Origin: Thelonectria olida
Taxonomy: Eukaryota > Ascomycota > Sordariomycetes > Hypocreales > Nectriaceae
Direction: 5' to 3'
Length of the DNA stretch: 64,000 bases
Assembly (NCBI GenBank): GCA_020736575.1
Contig: JAGPYM010000016.1
Span: 682,001-746,000 of the forward strand
The translations under genes and the position numbers were made by a program. Below are positions 27,838 through 40,530 of this stretch, piece after piece. Every line of letters begins with the position of its first letter. Position 1 is the first letter of the stretch. The notes under the pieces were generated by a model, which worked only from the letters and a program-made list of their open reading frames with translations, did no database searches and was not told where the DNA came from.

Positions 27838-28189
27838 GCTCAACTGTACGATTAAATGAAGAACCCTGTAACACTCATGTAACAATATTAAAAAGGCATC
27901 TGGGATGGAGTTTGAGAGAGATCATAGCGTACGTATGCAGGTTTACTACCGGCTATATTGAACCCATACAATATGAAGGAGACAGGTACAGATAGAGCCT
28001 CATGGAATTTGGATGATTCACCACATTGATTAGACTACCTACTCAACCCTTCATGCTCGAATGCAGTCATCCTCCGCCAGGCAGACGATCATGGCTGGTA
28101 ACGCCACATGTAACCACACATGATGCCGTCCTTCGCTACCTCCAGTACACAACACAGAGAAGCGAAATTGGCCAAAAAGACAAAAAGAA

Positions 28190-28243
28190 ACATACAACAG
28201 CGAGGATTCTAGTTCGCCGCTTCTCAGCTTAACGTGCGGGGAG
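28190..28243 (-). pseudogene. 5S rRNA gene relic, 3' half
   Basis: Read on the minus strand, this segment begins near 5S nucleotide 43 (CTCCCC), carries the helix II 3' strand CTGAGAAGC and ends GTTGTATGT with T-rich termination sequence after it. About 24 nt corresponding to helix IV are missing. The 5' half is absent here. A matching 5' half lies at 33586-33634 on the same strand. Confidence 0.8.
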
Positions 28244-28514
28244 CTGGCGGGGTTTCTTTCCTGCTGATTCCCAGCCTGAGGTTCAACCAGTTATCGCTCC
28301 ATTAATGGTACCGGCGGTCCTTCCACTGGGCCAGCCCGCCCGGCGAGACATTTCACATCCCTCCTCTTCTTCTTGATGGCTTATTATAGCTATGCTTATT
28401 TTCATCCTTCCAGGAGCAGTCTGCCCCTATATATATGCCTTCCTCCCTCTAATTGCATTATTGCCAGGGTCCCCCTCTGTCGCCCACTACAGCGGCGTCC
28501 GTCCGCCGTCATCC

Positions 28515-31500
28515 TTAGGTAGCGTCTGGGTGTGCGTTACCCGTATCAAGCAGCAGCTTGACGACAGCCTTATGGCCCCCCTCTGCCGCCAACTGCAGCG
28601 GCGTCCGTCCGTTGAAGTCCTTAGCGCCCGGGTCGGCCTTGCCTGTATCGAGCAGCAGCTTGACGGTAGCCTCATGGCCCCCCTCTGCCGCCAACTGCAG
28701 CGGCGTCTGTTTGTAATTGTCCTTAGCGCCCGGGTCGGCCTTGCCTGTATCGAGCAGCAGCTTGACGACAGCCTCGTGTCCCTCCTTTGCCGCCCACTGC
28801 AGCGGCGTCCGTCCGATATTGTCTTTGGCGTCCGGGTCGGCCTTACCCATGTCGAGCAGCAGCTTGACGACAGCCTCGTGGCCTCTCTCTGCCGCCCACC
28901 GCAGCGCCGTCCGCCCGTAGTCTCCTGTAGTGCCCGGGTTGGCCTTACCTGTATCGAGTAGCAGCTTAACGACGGCCTCATGGCCCCCCTTTGCCGCCCA
29001 CTGCAGAGATGTTTGTTTGGAATGGTCCATACCGTCTGGGTGTACCTTGCCCGTATCAAGCAGCAGCTTAACGACAGCCTCGTGGCCCCCCTCTGCCGCA
29101 CGCAGCAGCGGCGTCCGTCCGTCCCTGTCAATGGCGCCCGGCTCGACACGTAGATCTCTTAGTAATATCTCGACTGTAGAGCTGCATCCGATTTCTGATG
29201 CATGTGACAGAGGTGTCCGGTCTCTCCTGTCTGTAGTGTTCGGGGATGCCCCCCTATCCATTAATTCCTTCACGGCGTCGATGCTCCCACTTTGCGCGGC
29301 ATAAGATAGCGCTGTTCTGTGATCTTGGTCTTTAAAGTCCGGTTCTGTGCCTAATTCAAGCAACGCAAGCACCACCTCAGCCCAGCCGTGCTTCGCCGCC
29401 AAACAGAGGGCCTTTCCTTTTTCTTCATTTGTCATTGAGGTTGATAGAGTGAGGTAAAGTAAGGTTGAAGTTAAGCCGGCTCCAATCGCCGAGGGAAGTC
29501 CACCGCCACCGACGTCATGTCCCTGGTGGTCAACCCTTTCTGCAATGCGATTATAACGATCTATAATCTCGACAACAGCTTTGGGGAGTGACTGACTGCG
29601 GCCGGATTTCTGGTCTGAGAGCCATTTAATACCACAAGAGCCGAACTGTTTCGTATCATTGCCTCGCATTGCCCACCGGTATAACTCGCCTAGTGCGCTT
29701 GCTGCTCGTTTGGCAAGTTCACCCGAGTTGGTCAGTTGGTCATTCTGGCATTCATCCACTCTCGCATGAGGCTGAGGCTCGGTGCAAATTCTCCATGCCC
29801 ATCGGAGCATTGTCTCTGCCTGCACCCACTCATCACGCCTTCGATGCTGATTCGCGCTTTTCCTAGCTGCTTCTAAGGCACTCCCTGCGGAGGACAACGT
29901 CAGTCGAGATAGAATCGGAGGCAAGACACACAACAAGGCATCCTCTCTCGGGCCAAATTGGCTTTCGGTAAATAGTTTCACCAGCTCGGACACTAAGCCA
30001 TTTTCCAGACGAAAGTGTTGCGTTTCTTCTTGAATATCCATGCTGCCAAAGTCGTCCACAACGTCAAGAATGCTCTTGATAAACGACCCAAAAACCTCCT
30101 GGGTGCATAGGGATAGAAGAGAGCTGTTTGTAGGAGCTGACCAGACTCTAAATCGGACAGCACCTTGGCCCTGTGGCAGCTCCATGGCATGCCAACCAAA
30201 GAACCGGGCTATTTGCTGGTCTGGATTTCCAGGCAGGTCACTTGATCGAGGTTTATGCCAGGTGTGCTTTTCCTCGCCTTGTTTCCATATGGTACTTGGA
30301 TCGCCGCGTTGGATGGAGGTAAGATGAAGCGTGTCTTCCATAAAACGGGGGATCATGCTGCCGAGCCATATCTTTAGGTCAGTTTCTGCGATATTTCGGT
30401 TGGTTGAAACGATGCGCCGCGCCGGGATTTCAGTAGCTCGAGATTCTGTGAGCTGACTCCGTGAGTCTGATACCTCAACCGCAGGATCAGACTTTAGTGA
30501 CCAAACCCACAACCCCAGAAGCCCTTCCAGATCTAGTTTGTTTTGGAGTCTCCAAGGGTTTTCTGGGCTCTCACGCCTTAGGTGTAAGTACAGGATGTGT
30601 TGGTTTCGTGACTCCGTAGAAGCTTTGCCTGGTTCAGAATTTGTTGGCAGGTCCTTGGAAGCGACGTCACAGGCAATCCCCCAGGACATGGATTCAGCAT
30701 TCTTCCACTCTTTCCGGATCTTAGGGCTCTTTGAGAATACTGTGCTGGCTGCAGACTCGATGGCCAGAGCAAGTCGCTGAGCGTTCTCCCGGACTTCAAC
30801 CATTCCGACATCAAACTCCTCTGCAGAAGTTGTAGACTTTGTTTGGGTGTTTGGCGCCTGGGTGAGCTGCGCGAGGCGAGTCCGGTAGGCCAATAGTTTG
30901 CCAGCGACATTTGGCTTATCAGGAGTGGGTGGAGACCCCGGCCTGACTCTATCTGCGTTGCCACAGAATCTCCAAAGGTGACGTGGAGGATCTGGAGGAC
31001 TAAATGACGCACCAGGTGATGGAGCCGGTGATGAAAGATTCAAGTCGCGCTGAATATCTTCTCCACCAATACGTAAAGCAAGCCAGTCAAGTTCGTGCCC
31101 AACAACCTCGTCCGGACACTGAGCAAGAAAGTTGTCGTCCGGTTTTAGGCGCTGCATGCGGAGCGCGGCTCGCGCCGCACTCATCGCCATGATGGCTCCA
31201 AGCTGGGCCACAGAGACCGCAGAATGGATACCACGTAGCCCGACAAACTGCATCACAAAGCCGGCGACGGTGGTACCAACAGCTGCCCAAACGACAGGTT
31301 CCGAAGCTTTTGACCGGTTCTTCCATGAGGTGATGTACTGCTGTAGAGGCTCGTCGTGATCGCTGCAACAGAAGGGGTCAAAGATTTGATCCCCAAGGAC
31401 TTGTCCTCCAGGCTGTACCCAGTATATAGACGAATACGTCGGTCTGTTTGCTGCTGCTGCTGGCTGTTCACCAATGCCGTTCCGTTTCCTGTAAAATATG

Positions 31501-32282
31501 CGCTCGTTTGTGCTCTGGCCCACAAGAAATGCGCAAAGAAAGATGCCACCGCACATAAGAAGAGTTCCAGCGATGGTCAGCGGGCAGGCGTACGATTCTG
31601 GACGACTGCCACCCTTCTCCCACTTCAGGTAGTATGTCACAACGCCCGCAAAGACCAAAACGCCGACCTGCAAAACCATGCCAACTATGGCGACTGCCCA
31701 GAAAACAGCTGGGGGTTTTCTTTTGATTCCGACGTTGAGAGAGAGATTTGGAGCAAACGCGTCAGTGACAGACTCGGCGTCACCCAAGGGCGGTCCGTTC
31801 CACTCGTCTTGATCTTTTCTGTTGACGAATTCTCGAAATGTGTATATCCCTGCTGTACCATCGGCGGAATCTTGCTTGGCCGGATCATAAACAACCTCGA
31901 GAATCTTTGGACGTCCAAAAACTCGTGCAATGCCGCCGTTATTGTAGAGCTCACACACATCTCGGCTCGTAGAGGAGCACAGCTCGGCCTCAGCGTTCCC
32001 TCCTCCCTCTTGCGCTCTGCCGATGAAGGCACGCAGCGACGGGCTCCCGCACACGCGAATCGCAGAGACGACCGCGGTCAGGATGCCCATCGGTGCCATT
32101 GCGAATATGAAATAATCAAGCAGAGTAATGCTTTCGCTGAGGTACTGCTTCGTGATCTGCTCACCGAAGAGGGATAAAAACGGTGCCAGATCGGTTGCGA
32201 GATTATTCGAGAAGTCATCCCAGCCGTCCGCGCGGACAGGTGGGAGGCCGAGAAGGATGCAGAAGCAAGCAGTAAAGAACAT
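28515..32282 (-). CDS. Large membrane-associated ankyrin repeat protein (fungal family, function unknown)
   Basis: A single exon encodes 1255 residues. The amino end has a signal-peptide-like segment (MFFTACFCILLGLPPVRA), then a block starting DGWDDFSNNLATDLAPFL that I recognise as a conserved fungal family of unknown function. About four hydrophobic segments follow in the first 400 residues (including MAPMGILTAVVSAIRV, VAIVGMVLQVGVLVFAGVV and GTLLMCGGIFLCAFLVG). A long soluble middle region without a recognised domain leads into about nine ankyrin repeats. The last six are 34 residues each and nearly identical. No NACHT or NB-ARC motif was found. The reading frame ends directly after a complete repeat, and a decayed further repeat follows the stop. 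It is isolated in gene-poor DNA between two 5S rRNA halves. A role in recognition or non-self response is only a guess from the repeat pattern. Confidence 0.85.
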   Translation of the reverse strand: MFFTACFCILLGLPPVRADGWDDFSNNLATDLAPFLSLFGEQITKQYLSESITLLDYFIFAMAPMGILTAVVSAIRVCGSPSLRAFIGRAQEGGGNAEAELCSSTSRDVCELYNNGGIARVFGRPKILEVVYDPAKQDSADGTAGIYTFREFVNRKDQDEWNGPPLGDAESVTDAFAPNLSLNVGIKRKPPAVFWAVAIVGMVLQVGVLVFAGVVTYYLKWEKGGSRPESYACPLTIAGTLLMCGGIFLCAFLVGQSTNERIFYRKRNGIGEQPAAAANRPTYSSIYWVQPGGQVLGDQIFDPFCCSDHDEPLQQYITSWKNRSKASEPVVWAAVGTTVAGFVMQFVGLRGIHSAVSVAQLGAIMAMSAARAALRMQRLKPDDNFLAQCPDEVVGHELDWLALRIGGEDIQRDLNLSSPAPSPGASFSPPDPPRHLWRFCGNADRVRPGSPPTPDKPNVAGKLLAYRTRLAQLTQAPNTQTKSTTSAEEFDVGMVEVRENAQRLALAIESAASTVFSKSPKIRKEWKNAESMSWGIACDVASKDLPTNSEPGKASTESRNQHILYLHLRRESPENPWRLQNKLDLEGLLGLWVWSLKSDPAVEVSDSRSQLTESRATEIPARRIVSTNRNIAETDLKIWLGSMIPRFMEDTLHLTSIQRGDPSTIWKQGEEKHTWHKPRSSDLPGNPDQQIARFFGWHAMELPQGQGAVRFRVWSAPTNSSLLSLCTQEVFGSFIKSILDVVDDFGSMDIQEETQHFRLENGLVSELVKLFTESQFGPREDALLCVLPPILSRLTLSSAGSALEAARKSANQHRRRDEWVQAETMLRWAWRICTEPQPHARVDECQNDQLTNSGELAKRAASALGELYRWAMRGNDTKQFGSCGIKWLSDQKSGRSQSLPKAVVEIIDRYNRIAERVDHQGHDVGGGGLPSAIGAGLTSTLLYLTLSTSMTNEEKGKALCLAAKHGWAEVVLALLELGTEPDFKDQDHRTALSYAAQSGSIDAVKELMDRGASPNTTDRRDRTPLSHASEIGCSSTVEILLRDLRVEPGAIDRDGRTPLLRAAEGGHEAVVKLLLDTGKVHPDGMDHSKQTSLQWAAKGGHEAVVKLLLDTGKANPGTTGDYGRTALRWAAERGHEAVVKLLLDMGKADPDAKDNIGRTPLQWAAKEGHEAVVKLLLDTGKADPGAKDNYKQTPLQLAAEGGHEATVKLLLDTGKADPGAKDFNGRTPLQLAAEGGHKAVVKLLLDTGNAHPDAT
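28518..29129 (-). repeat. Six tandem 102-bp ankyrin-coding repeats
   Basis: Six head-to-tail units of 102 bp code for 34 residues each. Most of each unit (such as GHEAVVKLLLDTGKADPGAK) is nearly invariant. Differences concentrate in the first six to ten codons, giving starts such as DFNGRTP, DNYKQTP, DNIGRTP, GDYGRTA and DHSKQTS. A decayed seventh unit lies at 28468-28514. Confidence 0.92.
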
Positions 32283-33585
32283 GTTTGAGGCTGCACGTTA
32301 GAAGCTTAGGCTGTTACTGTGCAGGTTCCGAACGTGTGGACTTAAGACTGACACAGGACAGGACTTTTGCGACTCCAAGCTTGGCCGAGAGATAGAGCTC
32401 TATATGAGCTTCGTGCCCAACGACGGATGCATCGACACGTCAGACGAGGCTTCTGCAAGCCACCCGGTCCATCTTAAGAAGGCGTCGCCAATCAGCGGCA
32501 CCTAACGCTAGCCGTTAATGCAGCGACAGTGTGCTACCAACTAAAGAAAATAGACATGTAATTGTAAGGCACTTCTTACATTAGTGAGTGACGCGATGCT
32601 CAGTTTTTGCGTGAGAAACAGGGGAAAAGCCAATAAGGCCTTCAAAGACAGGCGCTTAAGGAAGGGGGAGAAAGAATGAAGGGTGTATTGGCGACCGAGC
32701 GCAAGCTACGGCTTACCTGAGTGCGGTTGTGGGCTCTGTGGGGTTGACGTGCAACATGCTGGCGAGGCTCGGCGGCTATCACGTTAAGGCTGCATCCTAT
32801 TTGCTGTGCGGAGTTACACGAACGCGCGCCTTCTTCCTTAGAAGAGAGCGAACCAAGAGACATATCGATATTCCGCAGACTGGAGTGGGAAATGATAATG
32901 TGTTGAGTACTGTATCATTTGGAGCAAACTGAGACCAGCATAGTTAACGGGAATGGCGATTCAAATTCTGTAAACGCTCCTCAGCCTAATCGCGAGGAGG
33001 CACCGAGCCCCTCGTGGGTTCAGTCACAATCTGGAACAGATGGGCGATTTGACAGGTCTGCTAGCCGCTATGACATCTCAAACCGTTGAAGGTCTATGCA
33101 ATTAAACGTACAAGAGAAAACATGACTCATTTGCAGCCAGGTACGGATACTCCATACAGATTACATAAGTAGCTTTAATTAACCCAGTCCATTCAAGCAA
33201 CGCACACGCCTCTGCAAACGTTACAGCTGGGTATCCAATGGGTTATTACGGTTGGCCAACCGTTTTAGACGGTAGTTCGGACTTCAAACGGTATTGCATA
33301 ATTGTGAACAGATGGTGAGGTTTAATAAGCAGTTTGAGAATCCAAAATCATAATAAAATAGAATAAAAAAATAATAGCATGAAACTAGAAAGAAGAAGAC
33401 GGCAAAATTGAGAAATAGAATATAAAGAAACGAACATTATAATACAAAGATCAATATTATGCACTCCCGGTGATCTTCTATAGTCACTAGTTCGTGGGGC
33501 TGGATGAAGGGCCTCTAGAATTGAATGTCTGGGGCCCCATTTTCGGAGGCACAAGACTCTAGAAATGGATGCACATATTCCACAG

Positions 33586-33634
33586 GAGAGAACTTAACGG
33601 GACCCAGTGCTTTCTAAGAGCTATAGTCGTATGT
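33586..33634 (-). pseudogene. 5S rRNA gene relic, 5' half
   Basis: On the minus strand it reads ACATACGACTATAGCTCTTA and continues to a CTCTCC match near 5S nucleotide 47, with about four extra bases just before it. A TATA-like ATAA lies at about -27, as for the complete 5S genes in this window, so this was a real gene start rather than a retrocopy. The 3' half is missing here and matches the relic at 28190-28243. Confidence 0.78.
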
Positions 33635-35973: not shown

Positions 35974-36144
35974 GGGATGGAAGCTCTGCTCAAAGGTACA
36001 TTCTCATCATCACAACTCACAACAACTACTCCAACACTCACAACAAACACACTCTTCACATCTTCACATCTTCTTACTTCAGCTCTACAGCTTCTTTCTC
36101 TACAACACAACAAGATTCTCACAATCACAAAACCACCATTCAAG

Positions 36145-36705
36145 ATGTTCTCCTTCAAGACTCTCTCCGCTGCTCTCCTCCTCGCTGCCAGCGTCTCCGC
36201 TGCGCCCACCAAGACCACCCGCGACTATGCCGACCAAACTGTTGAGCTCACCGGAGTCACTCACTCCGTTGTTGCTGGCCTCGGCGGTCTCCGCTTCGAC
36301 CCCGACAACGTCGTTGCTGAGGTTGGCGATGTCATGGAGTGGCACTTCCTTCCCGCCAACCACTCTGTGGCCCAGGCCGACTTCAACAGCCCCTGCTCTC
36401 CTTCTTCCGACGGCCTTGGCTTCTTCGCCGGCTTCAACTTTGTGACTGCCGAGGGCCAGGCCGACAACGTCTTCCAGGCCGTTATCCTCGACGACAGCAA
36501 GCCCATCTGGTACTACTGCCCTCAGACCAAGGGCAACCACTGCCAGAGCGGCATGGTCGGTGTCATCAACCAGAACTTCAACGACCAGACTCACAGCCTA
36601 GCCAAGTTCCGCGAGCTTGCTGCCACCACTGGTACTTCGGTCGTTCCTCCTGTTGTCCAGGGCGGCTCTGTCATTCTCAACCCCAACCCCAACGGCGGCT
36701 TCTAA
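36145..36705 (+). CDS. Secreted cupredoxin-domain protein
   Basis: This is a small extracellular or cell-surface blue-copper-fold protein of 186 residues without introns. A clear signal peptide (FKTLSAALLLAASVSAA) is followed by TVELTGVTHSVVAG and a cupredoxin fold. Probable type-1 copper ligands are His73 (NHSV), Cys125 (YYCPQ), His132 (GNHC) and Met137 (SGMV). Two more cysteines (84 and 133) could form a disulphide. No GPI signal or Ser-rich stalk is visible, unlike the longer serine-rich relatives. Strong codon bias (C-ending codons) and a good TATA box suggest high expression. A 36-codon upstream extension of the frame exists but would bury the signal peptide, so the ATG at 36145 was chosen. 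Confidence 0.88.
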   Translation: MFSFKTLSAALLLAASVSAAPTKTTRDYADQTVELTGVTHSVVAGLGGLRFDPDNVVAEVGDVMEWHFLPANHSVAQADFNSPCSPSSDGLGFFAGFNFVTAEGQADNVFQAVILDDSKPIWYYCPQTKGNHCQSGMVGVINQNFNDQTHSLAKFRELAATTGTSVVPPVVQGGSVILNPNPNGGF

Positions 36706-39336: not shown

Positions 39337-40530
39337 TGATGAATGAGAAAAAAAACTTGTAGATACGTTAATGTGAAGGGTTATGATTTGATTTGGAAAC
39401 CGGCTTTGAAGAGTGAAAATGGGTTGGTTAGTTAACCAGGCCTTCTACCCCAAAACTTAGTAGGAAGTGACATGACCAAACTTCAACATCTGATCAGAAG
39501 ACTATAATTTCAGCCTAGCGATTTCATAATGAGTACAATGTCTCTACCCCTTTATTGGCCTTCTTTATGAAAAGGCTTTTCCCGTAAGTTCTACCGTCGC
39601 CAACTCAGTCACATACCCTGGATGATGCCTGGAGCCACAGGCAGCGGATCGCCTTACGTAAGCACATCAGAGTCATCCACCTAAAAAATTTCCGCCGCAG
39701 CAGAAACTCTTTCCTCTTCTCCTCAAGCCATCGCCCTTTTCAACGCTGCGTTTCCATGCTACAAACAGAGAGACCTGCCCAGTCTCTTAAAAGAACGATA
39801 TTACCCTGCTTCGGTGGGGTTTATCGCTTCTTGAACTCGCATGTGGGAAATTCGGAGTATGCTTCACCCATCACCTCCCTCCTCACCCCGCGTGGGTTTG
39901 GAACGGACGGTCTGCCAGCGATGGCCCTGCGTCACTCGACGTTTGCAAACGGCATCAGAAATCTCGGAGCCTGGGCGTCCTCGCGTATACCCGAAAGGGG
40001 AAGACGGGCGATTGACCTAGGTTTCCATGGGAAGTCTTTGCGAAGCTTGTTGGGAATACAACTGAAGTGCGATACGCGGCGTCTTTACCTTCTCGGGGTT
40101 CGCTCCGGGAGGCAGGATAACTCAATTCCGATCATTCTGAAAAGGGCGATGGCTTCACCTCTTTTCTCTCAGGTCAGTATTTGCGCCATGTCAACTCAAG
40201 GATAAGGATACTACTAACGGATTGGTGGGCACGTTTGCCTGCTCGGGTGACGTTGTTTGAGTGGAGTCTCAAGGTGCTTTTATTATTATCATTCAGTCAT
40301 TAGAGAAATACATATGTCGCTTTCAGAAGCCAAGCCACGAGCCCTTTGCGTTTCGCAACCATTCCAACTGTCCTGTTGAGCCACGCGAGAGTTGAGAGCC
40401 TCAACCACAAAAGGAAAACCGTCCTGATATCAAACCGTCAACGCCGATCGTTAGCCTTGCCCATTGTCTCCCCCGTCTTGCAACCCGTCCGACCTGTTTT
40501 CATTTTGTTGATGTTTTGCTTTTGTCCACT
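39337..40530. other. Intergenic region, no supported gene
   Basis: These 1.2 kb lie between two 3' ends. A frame at 39756-40205 (149 codons, ATG) has no family signature and a composition rich in Arg/Ser/Leu. It is not supported as a gene. Confidence 0.5.

Follow-up and report, generated by a model that had tools for sequence, protein, structure and literature searches.

We analysed a stretch of 64,000 nucleotides of the Thelonectria olida genome (GenBank assembly GCA_020736575.1, contig JAGPYM010000016.1, positions 682,001 to 746,000 of the forward strand; the whole stretch is called the window), in which a 5S ribosomal RNA (rRNA) gene lies in two pieces with a gene for an ankyrin-repeat protein between them. 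The assembly (G000) comprises 52.5 Mb in 165 contigs, with the window on contig C68, and 5S genes are dispersed in this genome. The closest named protein matches of the window were from Nectriaceae, for example Mariannaea sp. PMI_226 (60% and 78% for the two genes flanking the broken 5S gene). On the window, the Rfam 5S family detected the intact genes at 9.8 and 45.5 kb and no others, and the two pieces were unlisted even at E<=5 when the family was run on 26-36 kb. We therefore aligned the pieces to the majority 5S gene, whose nt 1-119 are the same in 18 of the first 30 5S loci fetched.

Both pieces lie on the minus strand, arranged as one interrupted gene, with the ankyrin open reading frame (ORF) between them (Table 1). 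This bore out the proposal of an earlier note on this DNA, made from the letters alone. Its breakpoints had to be moved, since the pieces had been compared with the divergent 5S gene at 45.5 kb. The 5' part, which the note had ended at CTCTCC (nt 42-47), ends at nt 37/38 (33598/33597); CTCTCC is element sequence, at the place where the left end of a related element on contig C2, described below, reads GTAAGCTCTCC. The 3' part, said to begin at CTCCCC, starts upstream of that point, at nt 34 (28251). The overlap of the two pieces is CCCG, or CCCGT/CCCGC when nt 38 is counted, and the duplicated stretch is thus the 4-5 bp CCCG(T) and not the six-base CTCYCC that had been taken for a target duplication. 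Pairing between the two helix II arms, offered in the note as specific evidence that the pieces belong together, loses its force because both arms are the majority 5S sequence. The 3' piece lacks nt 77-100, a deletion of 24 nt. To judge from its sequence, the window 5S gene is dead, being split and without these 24 nt in its 3' part. No long terminal repeat (LTR) and no inverted repeat of at least 20 nt was found in the insert, in agreement with the note, which had seen neither LTRs nor terminal inverted repeats; the only direct repeats found by the repeat search were a 102 bp ankyrin unit and one 20 nt pair.

Table 1. Features of the interrupted 5S locus and its flanks (positions within the window)
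Feature	Position	Strand	Remarks
Flanking host gene, Mtf2-like, PF19189	26326..27837	+	Neonectria punicea homologue QQX98_008729
5S 3' piece	28189..28251	-	nt 34-76 (28251-28209, 41/43 identical to majority 5S gene), then nt 101-120 (28208-28189, 20/20), then T-rich stretch
Right direct-repeat copy, CCCGC (T38 changed to C)	28247..28251	-	second copy of CCCG(T)
Inserted element, 5346 bp (5345 if T38 is counted as target)	28252..33597	-	between the 5S breakpoints
Element right end	28252..28514	-	last 40 nt resemble captain-side end of C2 element
Cargo, uninterrupted 1255-aa ORF with C-terminal ankyrin repeats	28515-32282	-	only recognised cargo gene
Element left end	33230..33597	-	GC 0.38; 104 bp 76% identical to C2 left end
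Left direct-repeat copy, CCCG(T), 5S nt 34-38	33597..33601	-	4-5 bp
5S 5' piece, nt 1-38	33597..33634	-	36/38 identical to majority 5S gene
Flanking host gene, plastocyanin-like / extracellular serine-rich protein	35977..36705	+	N. punicea homologue QQX98_008730

Breakpoints and element ends in other 5S genes

Three 5S sequences were compared with 94 loci, 92 of which gave a match at E 1e-4. Pieces shorter than 115 nt filled 13 rows, which correspond to 10 distinct places, and all of them ended at nt 37-39 or started at nt 34. The 5' pieces ending at nt 37-39 were found at five places (the window on C68, C2:959406, C165:6420, C1:1182207 and C83:222632), as were the 3' pieces starting at nt 34 (the window on C68, C2:1079766, C91:101902, C1:3060981 and C98:40542). 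The break fell within the 5S coding sequence, at nt 34-39, in 10/10 listed pieces. The queries used to assemble the 94-locus set had included the window pieces, a possible source of bias, and we therefore added a genome search with the whole 5S gene. This returned 50 matches (40 of 62 candidates scored), 47 of them at least 115 nt long and three partial, all three starting at nt 34; its list includes neither the 5' pieces nor the piece on C98. The 3' piece on C98 belongs to the 45.5 kb 5S variant (98.9% over 87 nt) and not to the majority type, and therefore two different 5S genes were struck at the same base.

A sixth left piece was found on C80 (~242272-242309, minus strand, locus L056). It ends at nt 38, continues as TAAGTTCTTA, and is too decayed for the cut-off of the 94-locus comparison. 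The piece lies 81 bp beyond a full-length 5S gene, and 36 of the 43 differences in its alignment with the C165 copy are C>T or G>A, changes that look like repeat-induced point mutation. When the left-junction pattern was searched with up to two mismatches, 23 places were found, compared with 14 for the reversed pattern. Three of these were exact (C2, C68 and C165), one had a single mismatch (C137) and 19 had two, among them C83:222607, C1:1182232 (L047) and C80:242266 (L056).

The likeness extends past the 5S part. In the 110 nt that follow nt 38, the window, C2, C165, C83 and C80 were alike in 10/10 pairs (0 of 2000 shuffles in each), with aligned identities of 82/109 between window and C2 and 70/108 between window and C165. 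At the same place, CCCG is followed by GTAAGCTCTCC on C2 and by TTAAGTTCTCTCC in the window. A genome search with the window left end, stripped of its 5S part, matched C2 alone (E 1e-11 for the alignment given in Table 1), and the C83 left end, searched with its 5S part, matched C165 (88% over 128 bp). Two subtypes of one left end probably exist, as judged from these alignments.

At the right end, the bases before CCCG are ...AGAAAC in the window and ...GAGAAAC on C2. The score of the 40 nt before nt 34, compared between window and C2, was reached by 0 of 2000 shuffles, as was that at 30 and at 60 nt, and the 40 nt score was attained at three of 127,922 window positions, the true place included. 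The C2 right end recurs on C98 (93%), again at nt 34, and the likeness between the two ceases ~170 bp inside the edge, where a frame begins on C98. This frame (locus L093, C98:40350-40950), which adjoins the terminal ~170 bp of the right end, resembles a reverse transcriptase when judged by eye, and we read the locus as a rearranged or truncated copy of the element.

Three further loci, L047 (C1:1182207), L065 (C91:101902) and L080 (C1:3060981), break at the same site beside sequence unlike that of the window and C2. Among the edges of these deviating breaks, CAAGTT stands at a left one and AACTTG at a right one. A second family of elements may perhaps act on the same target at these loci. The shared tail past the break had first led us to suspect a family of half-gene 5S pseudogenes of the kind that Aspergillus nidulans has; the recurrent starts at nt 34 on the 3' side pointed to insertion.

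The C2 element and published Starships

On C2, a 5' piece (nt 1-37, 100%) and a 3' piece (nt 34-119, 100%) lie on the same strand 120,323 bp apart, with both edges and the direct repeat at one 5S target. We infer that these two pieces bound one element of ~120 kb, which is probably a giant transposon. Inside its right edge, three minus-strand frames that match DUF3435, the domain of the captain tyrosine recombinases of Starship elements, run inward, the outermost starting ~1.1 kb from the edge; a frame without a DUF3435 match starts ~670 bp inside the edge and is perhaps the first exon. One C2 segment exceeded the Pfam DUF3435 cut-off in the genome search (26.2 bits), and the longest ORF of the captain region gave weak zinc-finger matches, below cut-off. 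The putative captain of this element is thus near one edge and points inward. Terminal inverted repeats of the C2 element are weak (0.005 at 20 nt, 0.04 at 30 nt). Inside the right edge, at C2:1066159-1077896, a captain exon is lined up with three partial relatives, which occupy C2:1066159-1075933, and nested insertions are possible there.

Published systems are described here from excerpts of the sources cited. Starships have a captain at the 5' end and short direct repeats and measure about 20-700 kb (PMC12153272). The inward-pointing captain frames close to the C2 edge, together with the short direct repeats, therefore fit the published Starship anatomy. Some captain families favour 5S rDNA (PMC12134995), and the Osiris Starships of Aspergillus fumigatus, of the Enterprise captain family, insert into 5S rDNA and fragment it (PMC12153272). 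Osiris resembles the elements described here in the break within the 5S coding sequence, in its short direct repeats and, as on C2, in the captain at one end. It differs in size, since its haplotypes average 38-138 kb in a survey that left out elements <15 kb whereas the window insert measures 5.3 kb, and in its repeats, since direct repeats >6 bp are tied to 5S targeting in that paper and those found here are 4-5 bp long (PMC12153272). Targeting of 5S genes by Starships is thus already published, and what varies here is the register, at nt 34-38, and the small form without a captain. The window and C2 elements were compared with published ones, Osiris and Voyager, by target and anatomy.

The home of the Starship Voyager is Macrophomina phaseolina. 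DUF3435, and Starships inserting into 5S rDNA, are features that Voyager and its description have in common with the present case; its target AGAATACAGGGC aligns by eye with 5S nt 20-31, whereas CCCG(T) here lies at nt 34-38, in another register (PMC10128009).

Of the features that define Starships, the window insert has short flanking direct repeats (CCCG(T)/CCCG(C)) and shares both its left and its right end with the captain-bearing C2 element. It is not a large element with many cargo genes, having one long ORF with a Pfam match in its 5346 bp, and none of the 35 DUF3435 matches in the genome lies on C68. Because captain and size are lacking, the window insert is not a Starship by the defining features tested, yet it behaves like a Starship-type element that targets 5S genes, and has ends in common with one.

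Ankyrin cargo and flanking genes

The ankyrin gene of the insert contains six direct copies at 102 bp spacing (window 28420-29229), corresponding to a 34-codon ankyrin unit, and by eye the unit carries on past the ORF stop in another frame. Residues 1-927 of the ORF had 584 homologues among 7990 candidates scored, the best being 73% in Fusarium lateritium, and the named homologues among the 120 listed were mainly from Trichoderma, Penicillium and Fusarium; the ankyrin gene family is therefore an ordinary one. The earlier note had called for a genome search for other copies of the insert and for ankyrin genes between 5S halves. A paralogue stands at G000:C83:262320 (82%), where the duplicated segment corresponds to window 32721-28650 and begins 876 bp inside the window left edge. 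No 5S piece was found in the 9 kb fetched around this paralogue, and so we rejected it as a second copy of the element and regard it, as far as seen, as a gene-level duplicate. At G000:C81:600986-603327, 0.26 kb separates a DUF3435 fragment from a broken ankyrin gene copy, the only one of the ankyrin paralogues listed that adjoins a DUF3435 match; this one case, taken without an enrichment test, does not show the family to be usual Starship cargo. Ankyrin repeats have been named among Starship contents, where they occur among other genes of large elements, whereas here the ankyrin gene is the sole recognised cargo of a 5.3 kb insert (PMC11857905, PMC9594970).

Homologues of the two flanking genes carry consecutive locus tags in N. 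punicea, on contigs of equal length (96,662 bases). Contigs of equal length were likewise found for Fusarium zealandicum (FZEAL_2324/2320), Stylonectria norvegica (g825/g822), F. lateritium (ACHAPU_001008/000999), Cosmosporella, Mariannaea, Dactylonectria macrodidyma and Fusarium nematophilum (tags 42 apart). Synteny was read from the best matches among 120 listed per gene, and the locus tags reflect annotated genes only. The ankyrin homologue of one F. lateritium strain (ACHAPT_005514) is on a contig that differs in length from that of its Mtf2-like homologue (ACHAPT_007409). Further along the window, at 39810-40141 on the plus strand, a candidate nuclear RNase P RNA scored above the Rfam gathering threshold (32.8 bits).

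Origin of the window insert

The recurrent identical breakpoints, the ends shared past the 5S part and the consecutive tags in N. punicea argue with high probability that the 5S gene was interrupted by a real insertion, and they support the earlier note in taking the DNA between the pieces as inserted and of mobile origin. The insertion machinery is best explained as a 5S-targeting recombinase of the Starship type, and with a probability of about 0.8 we take the window insert to be a 5.3 kb captain-less relic, or a non-autonomous derivative, of a 5S-targeting Starship-type element. Such an element would have entered the 5S gene at nt 34-38 and duplicated CCCG(T), the captain presumably catalysing the insertion. 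The same site would serve related elements in other 5S genes, most clearly the ~120 kb C2 element with its putative DUF3435 tyrosine recombinase. The window copy would have kept both element ends and one recognised ankyrin cargo gene, with no captain, and would be what deletion has left of a larger element, or else a non-autonomous element that a C2-type captain once mobilised in trans; that its captain was lost, or was never present, in one of these ways is what we infer.

Several observations weigh against this reading. Apart from the lack of a DUF3435 match on C68 and of a 5S piece near the C83 paralogue, the captain frames on C2 stay singly under the Pfam cut-off (best 24.8 of 25.8 bits). 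The types of left end are not linked to one another by genome search, in which the window query missed C165 and C83, and the C83 query missed the window and C2. The likeness of the right ends is short, being marginal at 20 nt and at 100 nt (0.02 each), and the short terminal inverted repeats of the window insert are non-significant (0.06 and 0.12). At C1:1182207, the left edge differs from the five others (the score being reached by 106-1148 of 2000 shuffles), and the right edges at C91 and C1:3060981 also look different. The synteny in N. punicea rests on locus tags, and homologues of the flanking genes are on contigs of different length in several species, among them Fusarium sp. NRRL 66182 (F66182_2787 and _7965), F. 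beomiforme, Tolypocladium paradoxum, Drechmeria coniospora and Cladobotryum mycophilum, so that linkage of these genes is not general. At 5.3 kb, the insert also lies below the 15 kb floor of a published survey, in whose excerpted text such small indels were never transposed full-length Starships (PMC12153272).

Without any insertion, two unrelated 5S pseudogene fragments would have come by chance to flank a resident ankyrin gene. Pseudogenes of 5S rRNA are indeed common in filamentous fungi (18-83%, Rooney and Ward 2005 as cited in PMC5555474), and both window pieces are decayed. The pieces are, however, complementary, overlap by 4-5 bp, share a strand and follow the right order; truncated pieces at the other listed places have the same breakpoint, the bases beside the breaks are the shared element ends, and the flanking genes are tag-adjacent in N. 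punicea, all of which would make such a coincidence most improbable. The truncated pseudogenes of filamentous fungi are also 5S pieces that miss part of the gene, and are ascribed in the excerpt to birth-and-death evolution, whereas the pieces described here break at one site beside element ends (PMC5555474). Another possible agent is a 5S-targeted retrotransposon, of the non-LTR or the LTR kind, which would have cut the gene in place of a tyrosine-recombinase element, the ankyrin gene being caught up later. Repeats of 5 bp are compatible with LTR elements, and on C98 the right end has, at a distance of ~170 bp, the frame that looks like a reverse transcriptase, so judged by eye without a family search. 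We consider this origin very unlikely, as the insert contains no LTR-like direct repeats, the same right end leads inward on C2 to DUF3435-matching frames, and the likeness between C2 and C98 stops at the very start of the C98 frame.

A captain-less relic or derivative, the reading preferred here, could have arisen in more than one way. We lean slightly towards the insertion of a large Starship, followed by one internal deletion that removed the captain and nearly all of the cargo, or by a later event that put the ankyrin gene between the ends. The deletion and point changes in the 3' piece indicate that the window copy is old, the segment duplicated at C83 starts inside the left edge, and a captain fragment lies close to an ankyrin fragment at C81. 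On the other hand, both termini still stand at the 5S breakpoints, so that any deletion would have to be strictly internal, and no leftover captain piece was found among the DUF3435 matches of the genome, none of which is on C68. More tentatively, the insert may be a non-autonomous mini-Starship of 5.3 kb, which has a single ankyrin gene between the two ends that the recombinase recognises and which a C2-type captain carried in trans into the 5S gene, and truncated 5S pseudogenes of filamentous fungi may more widely be in large part scars at one or a few fixed 5S positions; taken jointly, these two proposals are rather doubtful.

A captain-first survey that leaves out elements <15 kb, as one published survey did (PMC12153272, from the excerpt), would overlook an insert of this kind. 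The 5S breakpoint provides a simple finder that is independent of the captain, in which 5S pieces ending near nt 38 or starting at nt 34 are listed. In addition, it suggests a cause, open to testing, for some of the numerous truncated 5S pseudogenes reported in filamentous fungi.

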